A stretch of DNA of 64,000 nt from Topomyia yanbarensis. Its lineage: Eukaryota; Arthropoda; Insecta; Diptera; Culicidae. A program made the position numbers and the translations under genes. How positions within the stretch are numbered: position 1 is the stretch's first letter; every line of letters starts with the position of its first letter. The notes under the pieces are model-generated. The model was not told where the DNA came from. It searched no databases and saw only the letters and a list, made by a program, of their open reading frames with translations. Shown piece after piece: positions 30,172-60,959 of the stretch. The stretch is from positions 3,162,001-3,226,000 of the forward strand of contig NC_080672.1 of the NCBI RefSeq assembly GCF_030247195.1, in the 5' to 3' direction.

Positions 30172-30899
30172 GTAGGTTTTCATATCTTGTATGGTATAAT
30201 AAATTTTAGCATAAGTATAGCAGTAACAGATTTGGTAACCGTGCGGCAAACGTCAGAATTGTATGAAGCAACTCGTAAACTGTGGCTCGGCAGACGGAAA
30301 TGGGTAGTACGTGCCAAAAATCATCCACTCTTGAAAATTGTTCCGCACATAATTTTTGGGTACCAGGGCCGATTAGTGGCATTCAGAGTGGAACCGAAGA
30401 AGGAACGTGTATATTCTATTTAGATAATACACTGGGTGGAAATCATTTCGCATTCTTCGTTTGCCCATGTGGTTCGCGGAACATCTGCATTAATAAGTTT
30501 ACATAGGTAATCATGGTCTGTAGGAAACGGAACTATTTGAGACGCGAAGAACGGAGATGGACTTTAATGAACTCTTGTATATGTTTGATTACTTTTTGGA
30601 GACTATACCCAAGTGACAATCCAAATGCTGATCAGAATTTTTCATTTTTTTATGATAGTCTTTTCAAAGTGTGACTAAATATGATTCTATCATTGCTTTT
30701 GCCGCTTTGTTGTATACGATTGACAGTTCTGAAGAGTATATCATGAATATTTGAAGAAACCTCCATATAACTACATTATTGATCGTACGAGGAGCTTTTA
30801 AACACTTTTGAGTGTTAAACCCTTGAATTTATGCACATACCTACCTAAAGTGAAGTCAGGATTTTTGTTGTTTCGGATTCTAGCTAACAGCTCGATCAT

Positions 30900-31631
30900 C
30901 ATAACAGTTTTTGCAACCGACCGAGACGGTTGTGCCTCCAGGTGGAAGGTTTTGTTCTCGAGAGAGTGACGGAGTGCGAGACGCTGTATGCGTTATTGTG
31001 GGAGAGAGAGAGACGAGTTTGTTAAGTGTGAGTCGACAGTTGATACGTCGGAGGCGTGGTCAACGGCATCCTCGACAAGTGGTGTTTTGACAGCAAACCG
31101 CGGGTAGACGAATTTGCCTACCGCGGTGGCAGAAATCGACAGCGATCGTGCCTGTACACACAGAAAAAAATATAGTGTATTGGTGTCGTCGGGCAATTCT
31201 AATCGACGAGAGGGAAGCGTCACAGGTAGACCCATTTGCCCTATTTGTCTACCGCAGAAGTGGTACGACGAATAAGGAAAACAAGTGGCACCGAAAAGTG
31301 CCGCATCGACAGTGGGATTTTCACAGCAAGCCACAGGTAGCCACATTTGTCTACCGAGGTGGTGGAAACGGAGAGAGCGCGGTTGTGGTGGTGATACCGA
31401 CGAGCAGCTTAATCGGAGAGAGTTTTGAAGTGTTGCAGGTAGGACTATTTCTCTACTGAAGAAGCAACGCGACGAAGAAGGACAGCAAGTGTCACATTGT
31501 CAAACAACGGGCACCGAGTTTACAACATAACACATGAGGTGTGTTCTACCGGTGTCTTCGTCACCTAATAGATAGTAGATAACAGGTATATTTTTCATTC
31601 CTTTTTGTGATAGTTTTTCTTACTAGGTAAA
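30900..31631 (+). promoter_or_regulatory. 5' UTR of the I-clade LINE with about four degenerate repeat units
   Basis: The untranslated leader between the target duplication and the ORF1 start contains a motif of the form CAGGTAG..ATTTG.CTACCG..GTGG near 31092, 31222, 31335 and 31437, so the spacing is about 100-130 bases. Internal promoters of I-clade LINEs lie in this region by family knowledge. Repeated leader units resemble in form the promoter monomers of some mammalian L1 elements; promoter activity here is inference only. Confidence 0.6.
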
Positions 31632-32945
31632 ATGGATGAAGAGATGGGAGAACGAGTAACAGACCCTCCCCCTAAGCCTTATGCTGAAAATGTAAATCCG
31701 ACTAGAATTAAAATTTACCCAGAGTCGTCAACGGGACCATGGATTGTATTTATTAGGCGTAAAGCAAAGGCGCTAAATATCATTCAAATTTCTAAAGATT
31801 TGACTTCGCGATTCTCGGATGTAAAAGAGATCGTCAAAGTTAATAAAGATAAAATACGCATTGTCGTTGGTAGTCTCAAACAAGCCAATGCAATTGCTTC
31901 TTGCGAGCTTTTTACGCGGGAATATAGAGCGTATATTCCTTCAAAAGAAATTGAAATTGATGGGGTCATCACAGAATCGAGTTTGACTGTTGATGACTTA
32001 GTTAAGCATGGGGTTGGTCGTTTCAAAGACACCATACTTAAAGACGTAAAAATACTTGAATGCAAGCAATTGCATTCAGTATCACACGAAGGAGATAAAA
32101 AAGTTTATCGACTGTCTGACTCATTTCGAGTGACTTTCGCTGGGTCTGCGCTGCCCAACTATGTCATTATCGATAAGATTCGTCTCCCTGTTCGCCTTTT
32201 TATCCCTCGTGTAATGAATTGCCTTAATTGCAAACAGCTTGGCCACACAGCCACTTACTGTTCCAATAAGGCACGGTGTGGCAAATGTGGGGGTTCTCAT
32301 CAAGAGGATACATGCAATGAAAATTCAGAAAAATGTTTAATGTGCGGAGAAAACTCACATGAGCTCCCTGCATGCCCCATTTATAAATTGCGTGAGGATA
32401 AAATTAAACGATCCTTGAAGGAGAGGTCTAAGCGCTCCTATGCAGAAATGTTGAAAAATGCTACCCCTAAACCCATCTTCTTAGAAAACACTTACGCATC
32501 TCTATTTTCGGAACAGTCTGACTCTGACGGAGCGTGCGAAGGTACATCATTTGTTTTACCCGGAAATTCCAGAAAAAGAAAACAGTCTTCTTTTCCCAAG
32601 CTGCCAAGAAAAGGCCTTAAAATTTCTCCACCAATAGATAAACTGCGCCCAAAACCGAAAAATTCCGATTCAAAACCGAAATCAATTCCGTCCGGTTTTG
32701 GGAACGTACAATCCAAACAGAACACCATTACTGGCAATAATAAAATTTCGACTTCCTCTGAGCCTCAGCCGGGGGTAGGATTATTGAAATTTTCTGAAAT
32801 TGTTGATTGGATTTTTAAAGCATTCAATATTTCTGAACCACTAAAGAGTATACTTTCAGCTTTCCTCCCAACAATTAGAACATTTTTAGAGCAGCTGATT
32901 GCTCAATGGCCCATCCTTGCAGCGATTGTATCTTTCAATGGGTAA
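31632..32945 (+). CDS. ORF1 (Gag-like nucleic-acid-binding protein) of the I-clade LINE
   Basis: An uninterrupted 437-codon frame starting MDEEMGERVTDPPPKPYAEN. The N-terminal half (about residues 30-180) has the RRM-like composition of LINE Gag-like proteins, with 'WIVFIRRKAK' and 'YVIIDKIRLPVRLF'. Residues about 197-245 hold three zinc knuckles: CLNCKQLGHTATYC, CGKCGGSHQEDTC and CLMCGENSHELPAC. A basic, serine- and proline-rich tail follows, then a hydrophobic end. The protein packages element RNA and helps target-primed reverse transcription. The stop codon at 32943-32945 overlaps the ATG at 32938 of ORF2 (ATGGGTAA), which suggests termination-reinitiation coupling. Confidence 0.93.
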   Translation: MDEEMGERVTDPPPKPYAENVNPTRIKIYPESSTGPWIVFIRRKAKALNIIQISKDLTSRFSDVKEIVKVNKDKIRIVVGSLKQANAIASCELFTREYRAYIPSKEIEIDGVITESSLTVDDLVKHGVGRFKDTILKDVKILECKQLHSVSHEGDKKVYRLSDSFRVTFAGSALPNYVIIDKIRLPVRLFIPRVMNCLNCKQLGHTATYCSNKARCGKCGGSHQEDTCNENSEKCLMCGENSHELPACPIYKLREDKIKRSLKERSKRSYAEMLKNATPKPIFLENTYASLFSEQSDSDGACEGTSFVLPGNSRKRKQSSFPKLPRKGLKISPPIDKLRPKPKNSDSKPKSIPSGFGNVQSKQNTITGNNKISTSSEPQPGVGLLKFSEIVDWIFKAFNISEPLKSILSAFLPTIRTFLEQLIAQWPILAAIVSFNG

Positions 32946-35128
32946 TTCACCTCCTCCAATGAAAGATTCCATCACTGTTTTACAGTGGAATTGCAGAAGT
33001 ATCATACCTAAAATTGATTCCTTAAAAATTTTACTGCATAATTTAAAATGCGATGCTTTTGCTCTATGTGAAACATGGCTTACCTCAAACATCAATTTCA
33101 ACTTAAATGATTTCAACATTATTCGCCTAGACCGAGACACCCCGTATGGAGGAGTGCTTCTAGGAATTAAAAAGTGCTATTCTTTCTATAGAATTAACAT
33201 CCCCTTGTTTGCGGGCATTGAGGCTGTAGCTGTCCAAACGAACATTAAAGGCAAAGACATGTCTATCGCTTCTATATATATACCTCCCAAAGTTCAAATT
33301 GGACAACGTCAAATTTTTGAGGTAGTGGAATCCATGGCTGCTCCGCGTCTGATACTGGGAGACTTCAATCGCACGGAGTATTGTGGGGTTCCCTCTACAA
33401 TGATAATCGATCCTCTTTGATATACAATGTTTGTGACGAATTTAATATGACAGTTTTAAATACTGGCGAAACAACACGCATCCCCAGACCTCCTGCACGT
33501 CCAAGTGCATTAGATCTATCTCTGTGCTCGACATCACTTCGGTTAGATTGCACGTGGAAGGTTGTACCTGATCCTCACGGTAGCGATCATTTGCCAATCG
33601 TTGTTTCAATTAACAGTGAATTAGGCCTTACGAATTCAATCAATGTTCCTTATGACTTAACACGAAATATTGATTGGAAAACATACCAAACATTAATTTC
33701 CACTTCTCTTGCTTCGACAGAAGAGCTACCCCCTACCGAAGAATATGAATTCTTAGCGGGTTTAATTATTGAAGCAGCAGAACAAGCCCAAACGAAATGC
33801 AATCCTGGAATGACAATAAATAGACGACCCCCTAATCCTTGGTGGGACAAAGAGTGCTCTGATGCATATGAAGCTAAACAAGTTGCCTACAAAGAAATTA
33901 TGAAACAGAAAGGGGGTATACGTGAGAACTTTGAAAATTATTTCATTTTGCAAAACAAATTTGACAGTATACGTCGTGCCAAAAAATCTAGTTATTGGAG
34001 ACACTTCGTTAATGGCTTGTCAAGAGAAACATCAATGAGTACTCTTTGGAACACAGCCAGAAGAATGAGGAATCGAAACGTGACTAATGAAAGCGAAGAT
34101 TTTTCGAATCGCTGGATATTTAATTTTGCCAAGAAAATTTGTCCCGATTCTGCTCCTGCGCAGAAAATCACTCGCGATGCTCCCACAAGTAACGATTTCA
34201 TAGATTCGCCTTTGACAATGATGGAATTCTCAATTGCACTCCTCTCATGCAACAATAATGCTCCGGGACTAGACAGAATTAAATTCAACTTGGTGAAGAA
34301 TCTGCCTGACCTAGCAAAAAGACGCTTGTTGAATTTATTCAACAAGTTTCTTGAGCAGAATATTGTTCCGCGTGACTGGAGACAAGTGAGAGTTATCGCA
34401 ATTCCAAAACCGGGAAAACCAGCCTCCGATCATAACTCGTATCGACCGATTGCAATGCTATCCTGCATCAGGAAATTGTTGGAAAAAATTATCCTACGAC
34501 GTCTCGACAATTGGGTTGAGGCGAACGGCTTGCTATCAGATACCCAGTTTGGTTTTCGGAGGGGAAAGGGAACGAATGATTGTCTGGCGCTACTTTCGTC
34601 AGAAATTCAACTCGCTTACGCAAAAAAAGAACAAATGGCGTCTGTGTTCTTAGACATAAAAGGAGCATTCGACTCAGTCTCCATTGATGTTCTCTCGGAG
34701 AAGCTACATCAATGTGGTCTTTCACCGATATTAAATAATTATTTATACAATTTATTGTCAGAAAAGCACATGCATTTTTCATATGGCGATTTGGCGACAC
34801 TCAGAATAAGTTACATGGGCCTCCCACAAGGCTCTTGTCTAAGCCCCCTTCTCTATAATTTTTACGTGAATGACATTGATAATTGTATTGTCAGCCCATG
34901 CACTTTAAGACAACTTGCAGATGATGGCGTGGTTTCTGTTACAGGACCAAAAGCTATAAATTTACAACAACCATTGCAAAATAGCTTGGATAATTTATCA
35001 ATTTGGGCTTTAAAGCTGGGCATCGATTTCTCTACGGAGAAAACAGAGTTGGTCGTTTTCTCAAGGAAGCGTGATCCAGCTCAGCTTCAGCTTCAGTTGG
35101 TTGGTAGAACGATAGCCCAAGTCATGAC
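32938..35128 (+). pseudogene. ORF2 of the I-clade LINE, part 1: endonuclease and reverse transcriptase, one frameshift
   Basis: Start chosen at ATG 32938, which overlaps the ORF1 stop by eight bases; another in-frame ATG exists at 32899. The endonuclease domain shows 'QWNCRS', 'LCETWL' and 'LILGDFN'. At about 33369-33370 one base is missing in the codon after GDFN; the frame then continues with 'HGVLWGSLYND' and 'HGSDHLPIVV', the endonuclease end. The reverse transcriptase follows with 'SYRPIAMLSC', 'GFRRGKGTND', 'FLDIKGAFDSV' (about 34652), 'GLPQGSCLSPLLYN' and a LADD catalytic box (about 34915). LADD instead of the commoner FADD or YADD is noted. The frame breaks at 35128/35129 where a DNA transposon is inserted. 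Apart from the single-base loss and the insertion, no stop was seen. Confidence 0.92.
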
Positions 35129-36417
35129 CAAGGTGCGGAAAACTCGCTCACCGCCATGAGCGTACATGAATTTGTTTCCTTATACATCGTCGGGGGTTTA
35201 CGCTCTCGTTAAAAAGATACAGACCCACACAACTCGTTCCGCATCACACCGTATGCGATTACGAAGGGAGAGAGAATCGGAAATCTCAAAATTTTTTAAC
35301 GCGTTCCGCATTGCCGATGCAGTGAGGTAATGAGTGCCATCGAACATATTCGGCAGCGAACATGTTCGTTCGGAAAAATGATCCAAATCTTCGTGCGCAA
35401 TCCTGAAACTAGACGATTGAAATATATGGCTGGATTAAAAATACCGGTAGGAGTCAGTGTCCGCCTGGACACCGCACGGAGTGGCAATTTCTGCTGTGTA
35501 GGTTCAACTCGCAGTCATTTCCTTGCTGCGTGTTAATTTTGTCATGCGCTATACATGTTATCGCTCGAGTTGAACTCTACCATTGTATGTACAAATGCCG
35601 TACTTGCGATGTAGACAAGATGTGTGGTAATGTACATTGGTTTAGATTTGTTTGGATTTAGTTTAATTTTCAATGTTCAGGCGCGTTCGGCTCCTTCCAT
35701 GCGATACATTCGAGAGAAAACTTAGATTTGTCTTCTTTTCTATGCAAATAAATAATCTCGAAAGTTGTGCGTTTTATAGCGTATCGTTACGCGAATATAA
35801 CTCACTACTTCCGGTGATATGCATTTGCAAAGAATTGACAAAATATCGATTGTCGCTGATCAATTTTCTTGTTTTTAACTGTAATGATAATATCTTTTGC
35901 TTCAATCATATGATTATCCACGTTTAGGTGGTTTTGGCTTGAGACGAAGCTGGCCCAGGTTATAACTCAAATTGATGTCAAAATAAATTAATTGATAACA
36001 GTTTCGGTTGAAACCTGACTCAGTTTCGAGATCAAACAAAAACACATTCGAGCTAGGGCATACGAGTCCGGCGCATAAAGTTCATACCTTTTTGTGTGCA
36101 TGAAATTAGGTGTGAATAAACAGATAGAAAGGGAATCATATGTATCAACTAATAACAATATAATAAAATATAATAGATAAATCGAAATTTTAAAAACAGT
36201 TTACCAAACGAAATTTTCACTGAAATGCTGTTAAGTTTATTAAGTTTCTTGGAACTAATAATTGGAATGGGGATTGCGTGAAATTTAGTAACAAGGATCA
36301 CTGTTCTGGCGGAGTAACTATTGGTGTTTGTTTCAGGCAACGTTCACAAAAATAGATAAGGCTAGTAACTGGGACTATAACCATTCATGTATGCGCTTAC
36401 AGTTGTATTATCTATAG

Positions 36418-36690
36418 CATTGCAGTTATTGATATTAGTCTGAAAGGATTCCGCTGGAGCAGTGCTGCCAAGGACATTTTCAGTTAGCAGTTAAAATGAA
36501 ATTTGTAGATATTTTCGTTATATTGCATTATTATTGAAAACTGATAAAAACACATAAATGTAGACTATCTTTGTCTATCTTTCCTGTGCTATGGGCTATT
36601 GAACAATTGGGCAGGCCATAGCACTCTGATAGAAGCATCACTCTTGATAATCAGAGGTTTTTAGTGTTTCTTGATACAAACAAATAAAAA
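36418..36690 (+). repeat. R2 dispersed repeat, copy 1 (inside the 4.07-kb transposon)
   Basis: The stretch with GGATTCCGCTGGAGCAGTGC near 36450, followed by ATTATTGAAAACTGATAAAA near 36530, closely matches 48740-49030 in the same order and orientation. The shared end includes 'agcactctgatagaagc' and 'tttcttga'. No coding content was seen. This could be a MITE that inserted in several places, or a part of the transposon family itself. Confidence 0.65.
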
Positions 36691-37384
36691 AAAAAGTCTA
36701 GCATGAAATGTTTCGAGTGATCGGTGTGAATGAATTTGTTTATAGACATCATTCAAAAACCGGGGATGGCAACGTGTGCAACTTTCGTAGCCATATATTT
36801 TTCCAATCATAATAACTGGCCAACAACATTTCGATCCGCCTCAAATTGTTTAAAATCACAGTATTTTCATATCAATTGGAATTTCTGAATCGGACAAGAT
36901 CAGTTGAGTTTGAATCGAATATTAATAGTAGACCCCATGTTATATAATACTTTCAGAGAAAATTGGTTAAATCTCACGGTATAAAGATACTTTCCCAAGA
37001 TTCAAATTTGAAAAATGTTACATGGTTAATTTTACGAAGATGCGAATTTTAATCCAGGTCGCAATTCTATGATTGTGAGTATTGTGTGAATTATATTAGA
37101 ATTTAAACTACACTGTTCTCATTAGGGTCAGACCCAAAAGAATGTGAAAAGCCTTCAGACAGCACAGAAAAGCTGTTAGGAAAACTTGGACCTAATTACA
37201 TCTTTGAGTTTATATAAAAAATTGTATGTTTAATAATGTTCTTGTGTGGTGTCAGATGGAAGAAGTGATGACAATCCTGTAAAAGCTTAGCTATCTGCTG
37301 AGAATGGTGTCCATTGCGATAGCTGGGGAACTTACGACACAGAAATGCGTAGAACTGAAGAACTTATAAATACTTTCAATTTGG

Positions 37385-37510
37385 ACAGTCTTCGGCTATC
37401 TTTTCCAAGCAACTGGATTTTTGCAAAGATTCTAGGGGAATTCTATTGTGCTTCGGAAAGTAAACATTAAGTAGTAGCTTATTACTGAAAGAGAAGCACA
37501 TACCACAGAG
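37385..37510 (+). repeat. R2 dispersed repeat, partial copy 2
   Basis: The block with 'agattctaggggaattctattg' through 'ctgaaagagaagcac' matches the second half of R2 at 48225-48305 and 48925-48995. It lies about 700 bases after copy 1 within the same transposon, so R2 segments occur twice in it. Confidence 0.55.
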
Positions 37511-39199
37511 AACAGACGTCCATCTTTAGCGTTCAACTTGTGTAAAAATCACTAACGTTGTCAAAGTCAATTGGGATATCTCCACCCGGTGCGTTACTGT
37601 CGTCATGTTAATAGTGGCCGAGTTCGATAGATTGAAAATCGAATTGTAATGCCTGAAGTTATTTAGATTGGAAGAAAACCATTTTTGTTGTAAAAATCAC
37701 TTTCAACTGTCCAAACAAAAGGTTCTTTTGAAAATTTTCTCCATAAATAGTCTTATTATCCAGTGTAGCGCATTCCTCTGTATTTGACTCCTAAAGTGCA
37801 CAGACTCTGGGTCTTACTATAAAAATTGATTCCGTCAGACACTAGTTACACTGTTACCAGTTATATTATACATAAATAATACATTTCTATGCATTGTAAT
37901 CAATAAATATAACACGTATAGCATAAAATATAGTTAACCCTTAACGCTGTTTTAAAACAATATTACGCAAAACATCTCACAGTAATGTATTGAAACTATG
38001 AAACAATTTTCACAAAAGTTTAAAAAAAAATTATTTGCGCGTTTGAGGGTAATATGACACCCAAGTTTGGAAATAAAGTAAAATGTGATATCAATTGATA
38101 CAAAAAATATCTATTGCACATTTTTAAAAGACCTATTATGTACAATAATAATGTTGCCGAAAACGGAATCCATTTGTTGCCAAAATCTGAGTGTACCGAA
38201 AAGGGAGCATGCACAAATCGGAACGTGCCAAAAACGGAATCTTACTGTACTATCATTGAACAGCCTCCAAGAAACATAAAAAACACATATCGTCAATACT
38301 TCCACCATTCCATTACAAGTCGAAAAACCTTGTCAATACGCTCCAGTATTGACAAAACAACTGAACGTGTAAGGACCGCTAATATGGAACACAAACAAGA
38401 TCAAACATTCTTTACTAGTATATATGATGATTGACAGCAGGAAAAACAAAAAGCACCACAAAAAGTATAAGTAATCAAAACATCGGGAAAATAATATTTA
38501 GAACAGATGGATAAATCGTCGTACCCGGAACATCACGTTCCAAATCCATTCTTGACCGCTCATCATTCCGAATTAGATCCACGTCATCACTGTGAACAAC
38601 GATTCCACGCACCCCGGCTTGGCCACACTATCATACTACAAATTATGCAAAACATCAAACTGTCTTGAAAACAAAAACAAAGTTGGATTGACGATGTGTA
38701 TCAAAAATATTGAACGCGTAAAGTCCGCTATTCTTTTATACCTATGTGGAATATGAACGATATACAAAGGGACAATCTGCTCGCTTAGCAAATTACAAAC
38801 ACCACTCCATCGATACAAAACACCGCGGCAGCGTCAATGCAAACAATCGCAAGCACCCGCTCGCATGCGGTGGAAATTGAATCGATTTTCGATTTAGGCG
38901 AACATAGATCGCGATCCAAATTTTTGAGGAAGAATCGCATTGCCGAACGGATCCGATCATCATAGTTCGGATACAATTCCGAACATGTATCGGAAAGAAC
39001 CTAAATTGCAGTGATCCAAGGTGAGCGTAAGAGTGAAAAAATACGAACATGTGAGATACCATATTCACTTGGCTTTGGCCGATCGGGCGTTCAACAGATG
39101 CACACTCATAAACAAGAAAAACAGAATAAAGCATCGGAGGTAGGTGAGTGCGAATGAGCCTTGAGTGAGCGTAAAACGATGCGATTCTTCCTATCCTTG

Positions 39200-40708
39200 G
39201 TCATGACCTTTAAATATCTCGGAATTTGGTTCGATTCTAAAGGTACATGGGGAGGCCACATTAGGTATCTGATAAAGAAGTGCCAACAAAGGATAAATTT
39301 TCTGCGAACAATAACTGGATCATGGTGGGGTTCTCATCCAAGTGACATGATAAGATTGTATCAAACAACAATACTTTCAGTAATGGAATATGGGTGCATC
39401 TGTTTCCGTTCAGCTGCGAACACTCACATTATTAAACTGGAACGGATACAGTATCGTTGTTTACGAATTGCCCTAGGTTGCATGCAGTCGACCCATACGA
39501 TGAGTCTTGAAGTACTAGCGGGAGTTCTTCCTTTAAAAGACCGATTCTGGGATCTCTCTTCTCGTTTACTTATCCGATGTGAGGTTATGAACCCACTGGT
39601 AATTGAAAATTTTGAAAGACTTGTCGAGCTTCAACCCCAAACCAGATTCATGACAGTGTATTTCAATCACATGTCACAAGAAGTAACGCCTGCTAGGTAT
39701 GTTCCCACATACGTCAATATACTAGATATTCCTGAATCCACTTTATTCTTCGACACGTCCATGCAAGCAGAGATTCGTGGAATTCCGGATCATCTACGCT
39801 CGCGGGAGATCCCTAAAATATTCACAAGTAAATATCAACACATAGACTGCCTTAAAATGTTTTACACTGATGGGTCACGAATCAGTGAGGCCACTGGTTT
39901 CGGTATTTTCAACAATAATTTTTCAATTTCTCTCAAACTTGCAGAACCCGCCTCTGTTTATATAGCGGAACTAGCAGCAGTTCACTATAGTTTTCAAATA
40001 ATTAATACTTTACCCCCGAACCATTACTTTATCCTCACTGATAGTCTCAGCACAATTGCAGCTCTACGCTCAAAGAGGATTGATAACCACGATCCATTCT
40101 TTTTGGGGAAGATACGAGAATCTCTGAGTAACCTGACAAGAAAATGTTATAAATTTACCCTAGTGTGGCTCCCCGCCCATTGCTCTATTGCGGGCAATGA
40201 GAAAGCTGATAATTTAGCCAAGATTGGTGCACTAGATGGTGAAATATATGAAAGACCCATCGCTTACAATGAATTTTATAGCGCTTCTCGACAGAGGACA
40301 CTTGCTAGTTGGCAAACATCTTGGGACAATGGAGATATGGGACGATGGCTACACTCAATTATCCCTAAAGTATCAACGAAGGCATGGTTCAAAGGATTGG
40401 ATGTAAGTCGGGACTTCATCCGTGTGATGTCTAGGCTCATGTCCAATCATTATACTTTAGATGCGCATCTCCGTCGTATTGGGCTCGCTGAGGGTAATCA
40501 TTGTGCTTGTGGAGAAGGTTACCATGACATTGAGCATGTTGTTTGGTCCTGCATTGAATATCGTGAAGCCAGATCACAATTAGTAGATTCTTTACAAGTC
40601 CGAGGAAGACCAATCCATGTTCCTGTTAGAGACATCCTGGCGTATCGCGATCCTCTATACATGGAACTTATCTATCATTTTCTAAAAACAGCATCTGTCA
40701 AAATTTAA
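39200..40708 (+). pseudogene. ORF2 of the I-clade LINE, part 2: thumb, RNase H and C-terminal CCHC-like region
   Basis: From the second copy of the 8-base target duplication the frame continues exactly in register (VMTFKYLGIWFDSKG). An RNase H domain follows: 'FYTDGS' (about 39862), 'YIAELAAVHYSF', 'LTDSLSTIAAL' and 'WLPAHCSIAGNEKAD' (about 40170), so the D-E-D-H-D active residues are all present. The C-terminal part has 'HYTLDAHLRRIGL', 'CACGEGYHDIEHVVWSC', a Cys/His pattern that sits at the end of ORF2 in this group. The stop is at 40706-40708. The last 90 residues are closely matched by the truncated copy at 18142-18384 on the other strand. Confidence 0.92.
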
Positions 40709-41025
40709 TTAAATTCATCTCCTCACACTCTCATCCAAGGCTAATCATTCACCAATTAAAGTGTCCTAGAATATTTAGTTTTTAAATTTAGACAATAACA
40801 GAAAAAAAGTAAATAAATACACCCGAAAATACTAGATCATTATGAAATACAACAATGTAAGGAAAAAAGCAAACCATAAAGTGATTTCGGTGTTAGTTTT
40901 AGACAAAGTACTAGTATAGTTAAAATTAGTCTTAAGGATTTTTGTAACGTGCTATGTAAAAAAAGAAACTGGCGTAAAAAGCTTTTGCAAATGCCGTGTC
41001 AAATAAACGTATGGGAAAAAAAAAA
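40709..41025 (+). other. 3' UTR and poly(A) tail of the I-clade LINE
   Basis: About 300 AT-rich bases end in TCAAATAAACG and a short spacer, then a run of A that merges into the target duplication. The same TCAAATAAACG end followed by poly(A) occurs on the minus strand at the 3' end of the truncated copy (about 16901-16925), which ties the two copies to one family or close relatives. Confidence 0.8.
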
Positions 41026-49105: not shown

Positions 49106-49808
49106 GAAACGTTGGTTATAATATGTGACTCCACTTCGTAAAATAAAATGGAGCCAAGGAACAGATGACCCGAGTCGAAATATTTACCGTGGAAAATCGA
49201 AGGCCCGGGTTGTCGAGCTTGACCTGTACTGCAAACGACACACCTTATTAAAAAGTTTGTCTTGGAATTCTTGCTCAAATATTTATATAAAACTTTTCCA
49301 TATACTGTTAACTTGTTACCAATATAAATAAAAATATAAACCAATTGAAAATACGAATCAAAAAAATCGACTAGGGCAAAATAGGTACATTTATATTTAC
49401 CGTAGCAGAAAAATTTACCCTGCCCATTATATTTACAGATTCTTCGCGAGTGGAGCTTAAATTCATAAAAAAAAACACAAGAAAAGTTTGACTCGTTTAT
49501 CCAGGTTATTCGATTATCCGGGGTGAGATGTTTTAAAATTCCCAGATAATCAAGTATGATCTGTACTTGTTTATGCAGAATATACACCTGAAGTTAGTCC
49601 AAAAACTTTCGGAAATGAAGTTAGCTCTACTGTAGATCCAACGACTTACTTAAATTTTTTTTTGGTTGTTCATACATTTTCATTCTAAGCTCGACATCAT
49701 ACGCAGCCACGCACGAGATATTAACACTTCCAGAACGAAAATTAACATTGTTCGTGCATTTAGTGCATTTAACTATAAAAAACATAGTGGAATTAAAAGG
49801 TAGAAAAC

Positions 49809-51060
49809 CTGTGTAAAGTGTTATATATATAATTATTAAATTTATTTAGGCCCAAATGCGGTAGCTCAACGAGGCCGATTGTTCGTTTTTTTACAATAAA
49901 TTAAAAAAAAAACAACTATGTTAAGTTTTTTGTCTCGTTTAGACGCAGCTTTCTGCTGCGTGTTGAGATCCTTTTTCTAGGGGGCGAAATATTGCCAGTG
50001 TTGTCCACTGCCATCTGAGGTTCGATCCGTTTGTCTTCTTTTGCGTTGTCGTTCATGTCCATGTCCTCATCCGTACTACTTTCCTGCTGCTCGCGGTCAG
50101 ATGTTCCAGTTTGTGTCTCGCTCTTATCGGTCGTCATTGTATGTTCATATTTTTCGGCATTCGTTTCGTTGTTGTTGTTGCTGGTTGTTGGTGCTTGATC
50201 CGAAGATGTTGGTTTTGCAGCTGTTAGTGGTTTAGCGTAAGATGGTTCTGGGCTGATTTTAGTTGGATTGGTTAAGTTTTCCTTAACAGTTTCTACGCAA
50301 GGTTTTCCGAGGTGCAGCTTCTTCGTGCAGAACTGGCACGTAGGAATTTGCCCTGGGTACGTGACTAGTGATGTTTGATGAATGAGAACATCGTCACTTC
50401 CTAACGCTGTGACGGTTATGTATGAGGGAATTGGCTTGGTCACACGCATTCTCACCACACGAACACCGTTAGGGATGCCCGGGAAAAAAATCCTCCAAGT
50501 CTCATGTGTAACGGAGTCTACTTCTCCGTATTTTTGCAAGGATTTTTTAATCGCGCCGTCAGGGGTACGCGTAGCCAAATCATGGACACGAACTTCTACA
50601 GCGCCGTTCTCGATGTATACGGGAATGCTATATTTAACATTGCCGCATTCGGCGGTGTGCTGCATGTTGTTTCGCGAGGCGAATGACTCAGCTTGGTTAA
50701 TGTTGTTGAACGAAATCAGCACGCAATGTTTGATATGATGCATTTGTAGGGTTTTCACTTCAGCCAGATTGAGTTTCATCTGCACTTTTAATAACTGTTC
50801 CACTTCCCGAATGGCTGGTCTTACGGGGCATTTCGAAAAATCAACAGCAACACAGTTCAACCGCAGCTGGGTTGCTTTTTGCTGGGCACCGTCACTCATC
50901 ACTAAATCGCACAGTAGGTATAGGCTATTGTTATATGGACTGCTTGTGTGATAGGCACCGATTGATTTTTAGGTAGAATTCACTGTTTCACTTGCGCGGG
51001 ACGATTTTTTGCTTCTGCTCAGGGCGAGATGTGAAGACAAACTGACTGTGTAAAGTGTTA
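49809..51060 (-). mobile_element. ORF1-only non-LTR retroelement with 15-bp target duplications
   Basis: A perfect CTGTGTAAAGTGTTA is found at 49809-49823 and 51046-51060. Between them, on the minus strand, are a 143-base leader, one intact ORF (50902-49916), and a 92-base 3' end finishing in 'aataaatttaataattatatata'. There is no reverse transcriptase and no space for one. The target duplication and LINE-type ORF1 show that the unit moved by target-primed reverse transcription using an enzyme supplied elsewhere. The layout is that of mammalian HAL1 ('half-L1') elements, an analogy and not homology. Confidence 0.88.
49916..50902 (-). CDS. Intact ORF1 (Gag-like protein) of the ORF1-only retroelement
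   Basis: A 328-codon frame starting MMSDGAQQKATQLRLNCVAV. Residues about 30-190 form an RRM-like double-domain pattern seen in mosquito LINE ORF1 proteins ('RPAIREVEQLLKVQMKLNLAEV', 'RVHDLATRTPDG', 'FFPGIPNGVRVVRMRVTKPI' in pieces). One zinc knuckle, CQFCTKKLHLGKPC (CX2CX4HX4C), is at about residues 196-209. The C-terminal 110 residues are Ser/Thr/Asn/Glu-rich and disordered-looking, with a basic end (PPRKRISTRSRKLRL) that could be a nuclear signal. No stop or frameshift interrupts it, unlike most element genes here. Binding of its own RNA is expected by family; the LINE clade of origin is not settled. Confidence 0.85.
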   Translation of the reverse strand: MMSDGAQQKATQLRLNCVAVDFSKCPVRPAIREVEQLLKVQMKLNLAEVKTLQMHHIKHCVLISFNNINQAESFASRNNMQHTAECGNVKYSIPVYIENGAVEVRVHDLATRTPDGAIKKSLQKYGEVDSVTHETWRIFFPGIPNGVRVVRMRVTKPIPSYITVTALGSDDVLIHQTSLVTYPGQIPTCQFCTKKLHLGKPCVETVKENLTNPTKISPEPSYAKPLTAAKPTSSDQAPTTSNNNNETNAEKYEHTMTTDKSETQTGTSDREQQESSTDEDMDMNDNAKEDKRIEPQMAVDNTGNISPPRKRISTRSRKLRLNETKNLT

Positions 51061-51809
51061 ATGTAATGCAACATTTAAAGTGTCTCTTTAACGATTGTCA
51101 TTTTTCTATACTTGTCTTTTTTTACCCTATTTTCTTCCTTCTTTCTGCAAATCGTAGTGAGTCTTGTACCCACTGCTAGACTCGCGCCCGATTAAACATG
51201 AGGTTGATCTACTTCTGTAGGTTTGTCTCCTGTAGAACGCTGCAAGAAACCACTTCAAGTGACACCTACCTCGATCTTCGGGTACCCACTTTTAAAGTCA
51301 CGCCAATAAAAACTAGTGTTGGTTTTGCTTGAGAACTTAGAAATGAACCCAGGTTAGTTGTTTCAAGCAAACGTTTTTTTATGGAACTTCGTTGGGTTCT
51401 TGCAAAAAGTGGTTGTGTTGGCGAACCTGAAATATATTTTCAGTGGAGAACCCAACCCAATTTTCAGTTCAGGGGAGCAGAACCTAGATTTTTGTGTAAA
51501 AATGAGCTATTTACCAATATAACCGATTGAGATTCCTTTAGTAAATTCATGCGCAAAGTTTCATCTGAATCGAAGAATATCGAGCTCTGTTTTTGTTTGT
51601 TTTGACATGAGAGTACACAAAATAGGTAATGAACAGAACATGCATTAATGACTGGCATCAAAAAAAAGGAAACGATTTGCTTTACGCGTAAATACTTTTG
51701 ATAACACGTCCTACACATCATTTAAGTGGTAAAACTTGAGTCCACTGGAGATGTATACAAACTAACAGAGATTAGACGTCCACAATAGGAATATGATAGA
51801 GCTCTGCAC

Positions 51810-59244: not shown

Positions 59245-60959
59245 TTATGACAGTATTGGACGTACAATTGTCGTGTGAATCCAATAGATGTATTTAGGTT
59301 TGAGACCCCAGGTCTTTCCAAAAGTTCGTCTGCACTGCCCGAAGGCCATGCACGCTTTCTTGACTCTTAACTCAATATGAGCAGACCAATTCAGTTTGGA
59401 ATCCAATATGACTCCAACGTATTTGACTTGATCTGCACACAGCAGCTCAGAATCAAAGAACTGCAAGGGACGAACCCCGGTTGTTATTCGCTTCTTCGTG
59501 AAAAGAACCATTGAAGTTTTGCTTGGGTTAACTGATAGTTTAACTTGTCGACACCACTGTTCGACAGCTCTTAATGCCTGTTGCATTAAGTCAAAGATTG
59601 TTCCGATGCAAAATCCAGTAATTAGTATTTGGTAATCATCAGCAAACCCGTAGGTTGGAAATCCAAGCTCATTGAGTTTCTTCAACAAGCCGTCAGCTAC
59701 CAAGTTCCACAACAAAGGTGACAGAACGCCGCCCTGAGGACAACCGCAAATACTCAACTTCCGTATCTCAGCCTGTCGCAGTGACGAGCAAAGTATGCGG
59801 TTACTAAGCATTGCGTTTATCCAACCCGAGATACATGCAGGTATCCCATGACCGCGCGTCGCTTCCAGAATAGGCAGGAAGAACACATTGTCAAAGGCAC
59901 CCTCAATATCTAGGAATACACCGAAGCTAGATTGCTTGAGCGAGAAGGCCTTCTCAATGTTGTAAACATTGTTGTTGTTCCTGATGTGATGATCGATTAT
60001 CTGTTCCAAAGCTTTCAGAAGAAAACTTAAGCTGATAGGCCTAAAACTCTTGGCTTCTTCATAGCTTGAGCGGCCCCCTTTGGGAATAATTCTAACAGTT
60101 ATTTCTCGCCATACTTTCGGGATATACCCGGTAACAAGACTGGAAAGCATAATCTTTTTCAAGACATGTTTAAGTATATCAAATCCCTTTTGTAGTTGCA
60201 CGGGAAGTATTTCATCTTTTCCGGGTGATTTGTATGGAGCAAAGCTGTCATCTGCCCACTTAACCGATTCAGTGGAAACCAATGTGCGTGCTAACGCCCA
60301 CGAGTCCGAATCACCAGAATAAGATCTGTAAACATTGTTCAGCTCCGGATCGATACAACCTGGAAAGTGTGTGTTGAAGAGACCATTAAGAACACTTTTT
60401 TCGTGCGTCACATAAACACCATCTCTGGTTTTTAAGGAGTTCAATCATTCGATTTGGAGAGAATTTTATTTAACCTGCTAGCCTCGTTCAGACTAGAGAT
60501 ATTAGTGCATAGGTTTTGCCAGCCAGCCCGTTCTGCAGATCTAAGACATTTCTTATATGCACTACGAGCTGACCTGAAAGCCCTGGAGTCATCACGCTGA
60601 CGCCAGTTCCAAGCTCTTCTCATAACCTTCTTCATTCTTTCATGCTCAGCCCTCCACCAAGGGGTTCCCCTTGTCGATTTAACAGTACGAAATAGACAAG
60701 CTTCTTCGTAGGATGCTAATATGAATGAGTTTGTCGTATCAACGACGTCATCTAAGTCGTCTAGTTGACTAATTGTTGGAAAATATCCATGAAATTTAGT
60801 CGCCAAGTATTCCAAAAAGAGGTCCCAGTTTGTAGATTTAGGATTACGATATTTTACCACATTGAAGGTGACATTAAAGTGATCGAAAAAAATATTTCTA
60901 TAATCGGTTAGAGACGGTTCAGTTTCATTTGGAACCTGCCAATTTCCCAGCTCCTGCAA
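59245..60959 (-). pseudogene. LOA LINE linker and reverse transcriptase
   Basis: The linker (60959-60441) has 'TRGTPWWRAEHERMKKVMRR' and the typical basic 'AYKKCLRSAERAGW'. The reverse transcriptase (60444-59245) follows in another frame: 'YKSPGKDEILPVQLQKG', 'WREITVRIIPKGGRSSYEEA', 'FRPISLSFLLKALEQIID', 'FLDIEGAFDNV' (about 59905), 'GCPQGGVLSPLLWNLVADGL' (about 59740) and 'YGFADDYQIL' (about 59640). The catalytic FADD box is intact. The canonical 'H.SQ.GF..GKS.ETAL' block after 'EKAFSLKQSS' appears shortened, which would be an internal deletion. Confidence 0.87.

Follow-up and report, generated by a model that had tools for sequence, protein, structure and literature searches.

A large and recently active family of non-LTR retrotransposons that encodes only ORF1, here called family A, is present in the genome of the sabethine mosquito Topomyia yanbarensis. 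The reading that we favour, with a probability of roughly two in three, is that of a Gag-only element of mixed make-up, which would have its ORF1 from one LINE lineage and a 52-bp 3' stretch from another (the LINE L055) and would borrow the reverse transcriptase (RT) of the tail-sharing LINE, parasitising I-type LINEs in the manner of a SINE that codes for a Gag.

The copy under study lies in a window of 64,000 nucleotides (C3:3162001-3226000 of the 1.17-Gb assembly), where it takes up 1.22 kb (1222 bp) and consists of a 5'UTR of 146 bp, one intact ORF1 of 327 aa and a 3'UTR of 92 bp with AATAAA. Its target duplication is perfect over 15 bp, with the sense-strand sequence TAACACTTTACACAG, and the sequence of flanks and unit confirmed what a preliminary description of this DNA had reported, namely 15-bp duplications around a 1.22-kb unit without RT. 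No RT was found inside 49824-51045, and Rfam gave no match at E<=1 in positions 49300-51600 of the window. The uninterrupted ORF1 of 328 codons given in that description is indeed intact, but it measures 327 aa from the ATG at 50899, the count of 328 having taken in an upstream GTG. The unit is made up as follows:

49824..51045, minus strand: ORF1-only retroelement of family A, whole unit (copies with the same ends; target duplications)
49809..49823: target-site duplication by the 3' end of the unit, 15/15 identical to 51046-51060
51046..51060: target-site duplication by the 5' end of the unit, pairing with 49809..49823
50900..51045, minus strand: 5'UTR, starting (T)CAGTTTGTCTTCACATCTCGCCCTGAGCAG (30-mer with 384 exact genome matches, reversed control 0)
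49916..50899, minus strand: ORF1, 327 aa plus stop, putative Gag-like RNA-binding protein (purifying selection; AlphaFold2 model)
49840..49845, minus strand: AATAAA, likely polyadenylation signal (sequence; A run ~12 nt downstream in most of 25 copies)

Copy number, ends and target duplications

The genome search with 49824-51045 that had been proposed at the outset returned the picture then anticipated: numerous copies that share both ends, have target duplications, lack an ORF2 and show a dN/dS well below 1. The best 40 scored copies of 3389 first-look candidates are 97-100% identical to the query, each covering at least its positions 10-1218 of 1222. Besides the 5' 30-mer listed above, a 28-mer from the 3' part of ORF1 and a 33-mer of the tail have 405 and 325 exact genome matches, respectively, with 0 for either reversed control, all three counts leaving out copies with a changed base in the word. 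Family A copies are dispersed on C1-C3. Four of them are found together at C1:120823068-120842586, with spacings of ~5.3, 4.0 and 9.3 kb, as if a two-copy segment had been duplicated.

Exact target duplications of 9 bp or more were observed in 19 of 25 copies versus 10 of 600 mismatched flank pairs, so that the duplications are not due to chance; their length is 12-15 bp in 17 of the 25 copies, and three show zero duplication under the strict exact test. By eye, 20 of these 25 copies terminate in five or more consecutive A, typically AATAAATTTAATAATTATAAAAAA. The earlier claim that the tail is not poly(A) consequently holds for the window copy, which carries a TATATA variant, and for a few others (TA runs are also found at the tails of L009, L015 and L020), but not as a trait of the family. 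Target-site duplications, a poly(A) or simple tail and the lack of an LTR, which are general features of non-LTR retrotransposons, are all seen in family A. A frame of at least 327 codons is open in 18 of 21 copies, a sample formed by the window copy and the 20 best matches and thus biased towards intact ones, and a protein search with 29468 candidates gave 122 scored matches, of which 97 are free of internal stops as counted from the listing.

Absence of ORF2 in the copies examined

Exact words for the 5' end, the ORF1 end and the tail were paired on C1, completely for these words, with the tail sought within 20 kb. Starting from 89 ORF1 ends, the tail lies at 81-95 bp in 60 cases and further away in two (2469 and 9119 bp), with no exact tail match within 20 kb in the other 27; starting from 79 5' ends, it lies at 1071-1165 bp in 40, further away in eight and nowhere in that range in 31. 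The case at 2469 bp is explained by a 2.4-kb stretch with terminal inverted repeats inserted in the 3'UTR, which has no match to the three RTs compared. Three more divergent copies (~95% DNA identity), taken with their flanks, were ORF1-only as well. The contrary finding raised in the preliminary description, that other copies continue into an ORF2, was sought by the word pairing on C1 and in the loci fetched, and no such copy of family A was found; nor did any fetched locus of family A or of its sister family B enter an ORF2.

The ORF1 protein and its selection

The ORF1 protein was modelled with AlphaFold2 from a 47-row alignment (pLDDT 76 on average, with block means of 89-97 for residues 21-200), and the confident part of the model, residues ~20-200, shows two RRM-like folds. 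The predicted domains are:

50612..50854, minus strand: RRM-like domain 1, residues ~16-96 (model secondary structure; Foldseek)
50360..50599, minus strand: RRM-like domain 2, residues ~101-180 (model and Foldseek; weak RRM_1 match in relatives)
50297..50338, minus strand: CCHC knuckle CX2CX4HX4C, residues 188-201 (sequence)

Foldseek searches with the model retrieved the two-RRM proteins Sex-lethal (1b7f, TMt 0.56) and HuD (1fxl, TMt 0.53); the top matches by E-value were NONO and SFPQ chains, with TM-scores below 0.3. A weak RRM_1 match occurs in 6 of 47 ORF1 relatives (best E 0.0012), and residues C188, C191, H196 and C201 of the knuckle are conserved in at least 90% of the 47. Pfam gave nothing at E<=0.1 for the window protein itself, two matches at E 0.84 and 1.6 being discarded as noise. 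The model and the knuckle suggest that ORF1 functions as a Gag-like RNA binder.

Rates of substitution were calculated by the method of Nei and Gojobori with bootstrap 95% ranges. Over 19 ORF1-only pairs dN/dS is 0.18-0.38, every range lying below 0.8, with values of 0.29-0.38 among A subfamilies, 0.31 for A against the sister family C, 0.30 for A-B, 0.24 for C-B and 0.18-0.36 among B relatives; the LINE pair L047-L048 gives 0.14. Such selection on ORF1 is no proof of cis action, and ORF1 may bind its own RNA in cis.

Two LINE groups, one matching the ORF1 and another the tail

LINEs sharing the 3' tail or the ORF1 of family A were searched for, as the preliminary description had suggested, and were indeed found, but they belong to two different groups: L049/L050 for the ORF1 and L055 for the tail. 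The former (C2:305769300-305777700) is a complete LINE with ORF1, a long linker and an APE-RT ORF2 with zf-RVT, and the ORF1 group to which it belongs is homologous to that of family A (hhalign probability 100, E 6e-43). Its 3' end reads AATAAATTTTTACAAAAAAAA, lacks the hairpin motif described below and terminates in poly(A). The linker between its ORF1 and ORF2 is ~1.5 kb long with internal repeats, and forms one open 863-aa frame in this copy. An abundant LINE with a 994-aa ORF2, found through the locus L041, was considered as a partner and rejected, its ORF1 and its tail (in the copy L042) both being different. L042 (C2:16227009-16233609) lies in a stretch rich in simple repeats. Of 68 scored matches in the search for this LINE, nearly all are ~99% identical to the query and most have the full open frame, so that it looks very recently active.

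The tail leads to L055, a complete young LINE with a 471-aa ORF1 frame and a 1241-aa ORF2, both open, and an 18-bp duplication (by eye). Its ORF2 contains APE, RT and RNase H domains (Pfam), and the 1241-aa frame is open in dozens of 150 scored ORF2 matches. From the names of its relatives, L055 is probably an I-type LINE (2 of 45 relatives among the L055 matches listed are named 'i-11 aae'), and its APE, RT and RNase H content fits the I clade; a first guess of LOA was dropped in view of these names, which indicate the I group. Tail matches also occur in the LINE copies L053, whose ORF2 is in broken frames only, and L051, a copy of ~75 bp. A second, interrupted LINE of the L055 group, LINE2, lies in the window itself. 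The features concerned are:

49841..49892, minus strand: 3' stretch common to family A and L055 (52 bp, 88.5% identity, E 5e-13)
49848..49875, minus strand: putative 3' hairpin GGCCT...GGGCC, loop GTTGAGCTACCGC (sequence; folding compared with shuffles)
30900..41025, plus strand: LINE2, with a 3' end matching the family B tail (ORFs; duplication)
40993..41009, plus strand: GCCGTGTCAAATAAACG, close to the 3' end of LINE2 and shared with the family B tail, again close to its end (local score)

LINE2 has its ORF1 at 31632-32945 and pieces of ORF2 within 32899-35159 and 39161-40708, which show 69-73% aa identity to the L055 ORF2, and it is flanked by a 14-bp duplication, AACAGCTCGATCAT, at 30886 and 41026. 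Some 4 kb (35160-39160) are inserted in its ORF2. Elsewhere in the window, the minus strand contains another RT-like stretch (59251-60279), with 22-27% aa identity to two LINE ORF2s. A palindromic TA-rich element adjoins a LINE copy at L026:660-1195, and one of its arms has sequence similar to the L055 tail.

The stretch shared by family A and L055 ends 17 bp from the 3' end of the unit and shortly before the poly(A) of L055, lying within ~20 bp of poly(A) in both, and the tails score 72, where shuffles reach 25 at most. The family B tail scores 34 locally with LINE2, against a maximum of 25 (0/200 shuffles). Cross-pairings score 21 for A-LINE2 (35/200 shuffles as good) and 22 for B-L055 (4/200), and the tail of family C shows only a partial match to L055 (24; 0/200) and none above shuffles to LINE2 (20; 23/200). 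Judged by these similarities, the pairing of A with L055 is strong and that of B with LINE2 moderate. The ORF1s behave otherwise: no tblastn match at E<=1 was obtained between those of family A and L055, and hhalign gave a probability of 0.3 for family A against L055 and LINE2. As for the putative hairpin, it folds no better than shuffles in family A (z -0.41) and L055 (z -0.50), versus z values of -4.3 and -4.2 in families B and C, respectively, and RNAalifold on the tails revealed no covarying pair, families A and B being aligned out of register.

Sister families and relatives in other mosquitoes

Families B (L045, L046) and C (L038) share the ORF1-only layout of family A, with 44-57% aa identity in ORF1, duplications (by eye) and poly(A). 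Their hairpin pattern has 1114 exact genome matches, and of seven places with a variant hairpin five are preceded by the open 3' end of a B-type ORF1 (50-74% aa identity to B), one by a broken-up C-type ORF1 and one by a decayed ORF1. In a tree of 58 ORF1 proteins, A, B, C, the protein P0003 and two proteins of Malaya genurostris form one clade (support 100/99), from which the L049-type LINE ORF1 stands apart.

Six C-like ORF1 loci (L034-L037, L039, L040) have a deletion and, joined on after the hairpin, the decayed relic of an RT; they were rejected as an autonomous parent and treated as composites. This composite has been amplified at ~95-98% identity. In the C-like locus L041, an open 645-aa stretch of ORF2 from the 994-aa LINE is joined to the C-like piece. 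The piece is flanked on either side by parts of that LINE, and there are two instances of the arrangement at a distance of 3.6 kb, which we read as probable nesting with duplication.

Regarding other species, the C-terminus of the Malaya protein P0018 is compatible with a translated A or L055 tail (1/300 shuffles each), the clearest case among 12 proteins and 3 tails (P0016 with the A tail, 3/300; P0022, the second Malaya protein, with that tail, 21/300), and translated tail sequence there is suggestive only. Many relatives lie on short contigs of 1.03-1.36 kb with ORFs of 280-340 aa, which hints at ORF1-only units in other mosquitoes as well; but repeats can be expected to yield short contigs, and these were not used as evidence. 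A wider view, which we hold tentatively and at somewhat under even odds, would make these Gag-only 'protein-coding SINEs' an old, self-sustaining lineage that diversified in sabethine mosquitoes after losing any autonomous parent and that keeps pace with its hosts by acquiring the 3' tails of whatever RNase H-bearing LINE is active, one tail per family, with the Malaya genurostris and short-contig ORF1 relatives included.

Proposed mobilisation and alternative explanations

Under the mixed-origin reading, the family A unit would be transcribed by Pol II and its RNA would receive a poly(A) through AATAAA. The ORF1 protein would bind its own RNA, preferably in cis, forming an RNP in which the ORF2 protein of the tail-sharing LINE would recognise the 3' tail, and insertion by target-primed reverse transcription would leave duplications of mostly 12-15 bp. 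Family A would in this way be SINE-like while carrying its own Gag, and families B and C would do likewise with other tails, that of B matching LINE2. We infer mobilisation in trans by the LINE with the shared tail from sequence similarity, and RT recognition of the tail is suggested because shared tails mark it under the SINE/LINE rule (PMC3747384).

The arrangement had been described at first as HAL1-like, and this stands insofar as only ORF1 is encoded. An internal deletion of a LINE that once combined this ORF1 with this tail, and that continues to mobilise the product, would agree with the LINE-like 5' and 3' ends of the unit and with the existence of a LINE with a homologous ORF1. Nevertheless, a simple half-LINE of the HAL1 type is not supported, since the LINE group that matches the ORF1 is not the one that matches the tail: L049/L050 ends differently, the tail-carrying LINEs have an ORF1 without detectable similarity to that of family A, no fetched A or B locus enters an ORF2, and among the C-like loci six have only the decayed RT relic and L041 runs into an ORF2 that belongs to the unrelated 994-aa LINE. 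Such a deletion is accordingly an unlikely origin. Somewhat less probable still is that an L049/L050-type LINE mobilises family A through poly(A) alone, the tail similarity being a relic of origin. Both do end in poly(A) and their ORF1s are homologous, but the duplication of L049/L050 is short (~7 bp, single copy, by eye) compared with the 12-15 bp of 17 in 25 family A copies, whereas three LINE copies of the L055 group have 11, 14 and 18 bp, lengths that for all candidate partners come from four copies; moreover, A, B and C all show tail similarity close to the poly(A), which points to recognition by sequence.

The least probable alternative by far, to which we give very little weight, is that ORF1 has been retained by chance in SINE-like copies still too young for their frame to have decayed. 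The best family A copies are ~98% identical, as this would predict, but dN/dS is 0.18-0.36 in the 11 pairs with dS of at least 0.43, several of these being above 1 and near saturation, and A, B and the Malaya relatives all retain the frame and the CCHC, together with much of a basic motif at the C-terminus.

Significance and comparison with known systems

The need of a LINE RNA for Gag, and the ability of a Gag to work with an RT of another clade, are normally studied in intact elements. Family A is seemingly a natural chimera that joins the Gag of one lineage to the 3' tail of a different one, exists in hundreds of copies and has its Gag under selection. If the mixed-origin reading is right, the ORF1 protein would be worth carrying even with a foreign ORF2 protein and the 3' tail would decide which RT is used. 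A single genome with several families that differ in their tails makes a comparative set open to testing. No description of family A was found among the matches listed from open PMC literature (titles and abstract beginnings, most subscription papers and Repbase lying outside this scope), and its unreported status is not firmly claimed.

Stringent-type SINEs, which are non-coding and have a Pol III head (tRNA, 5S or 7SL), offer a parallel in the 3' end. According to PMC3747384, the homology of this end to that of the partner LINE is a mark of recognition by its RT. Family A likewise has a 3' tail in common with a LINE (A with L055, B with LINE2), but it encodes a selected protein and lacks a known RNA head, as judged by Rfam. 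Among mosquito LINEs, some CR1 copies of Anopheles gambiae are reported to keep a full ORF1 without ORF2, as in family A; however, PMC3442997 describes them as truncated first-part copies missing the 3' end, and both termini of family A are fixed.

HAL1 and HeT-A are the nearest precedents. HAL1 is mobilised in trans by a LINE. This half-L1 of mammals is a non-autonomous element encoding ORF1p only (PMC5753468), as does family A, but it derives from L1, whereas the ORF1 and the tail of family A match two LINE groups (a parent with both was not found) and its tail is a specific 3' sequence as opposed to poly(A) alone. HeT-A, itself without RT, is a telomere repeat of Drosophila, arranged head to tail at chromosome ends without target duplications. 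Its Gag binds its own RNA with a cis preference, and the RTs of TART and TAHRE are likely critical for it (PMC6114517), so that family A, offered in the preliminary description as an independent case in insects, is preceded there as a Gag-only element. Both are insect elements with a Gag and no RT, but family A, rather than being terminal and head to tail, is dispersed, with duplications mostly of 12-15 bp.
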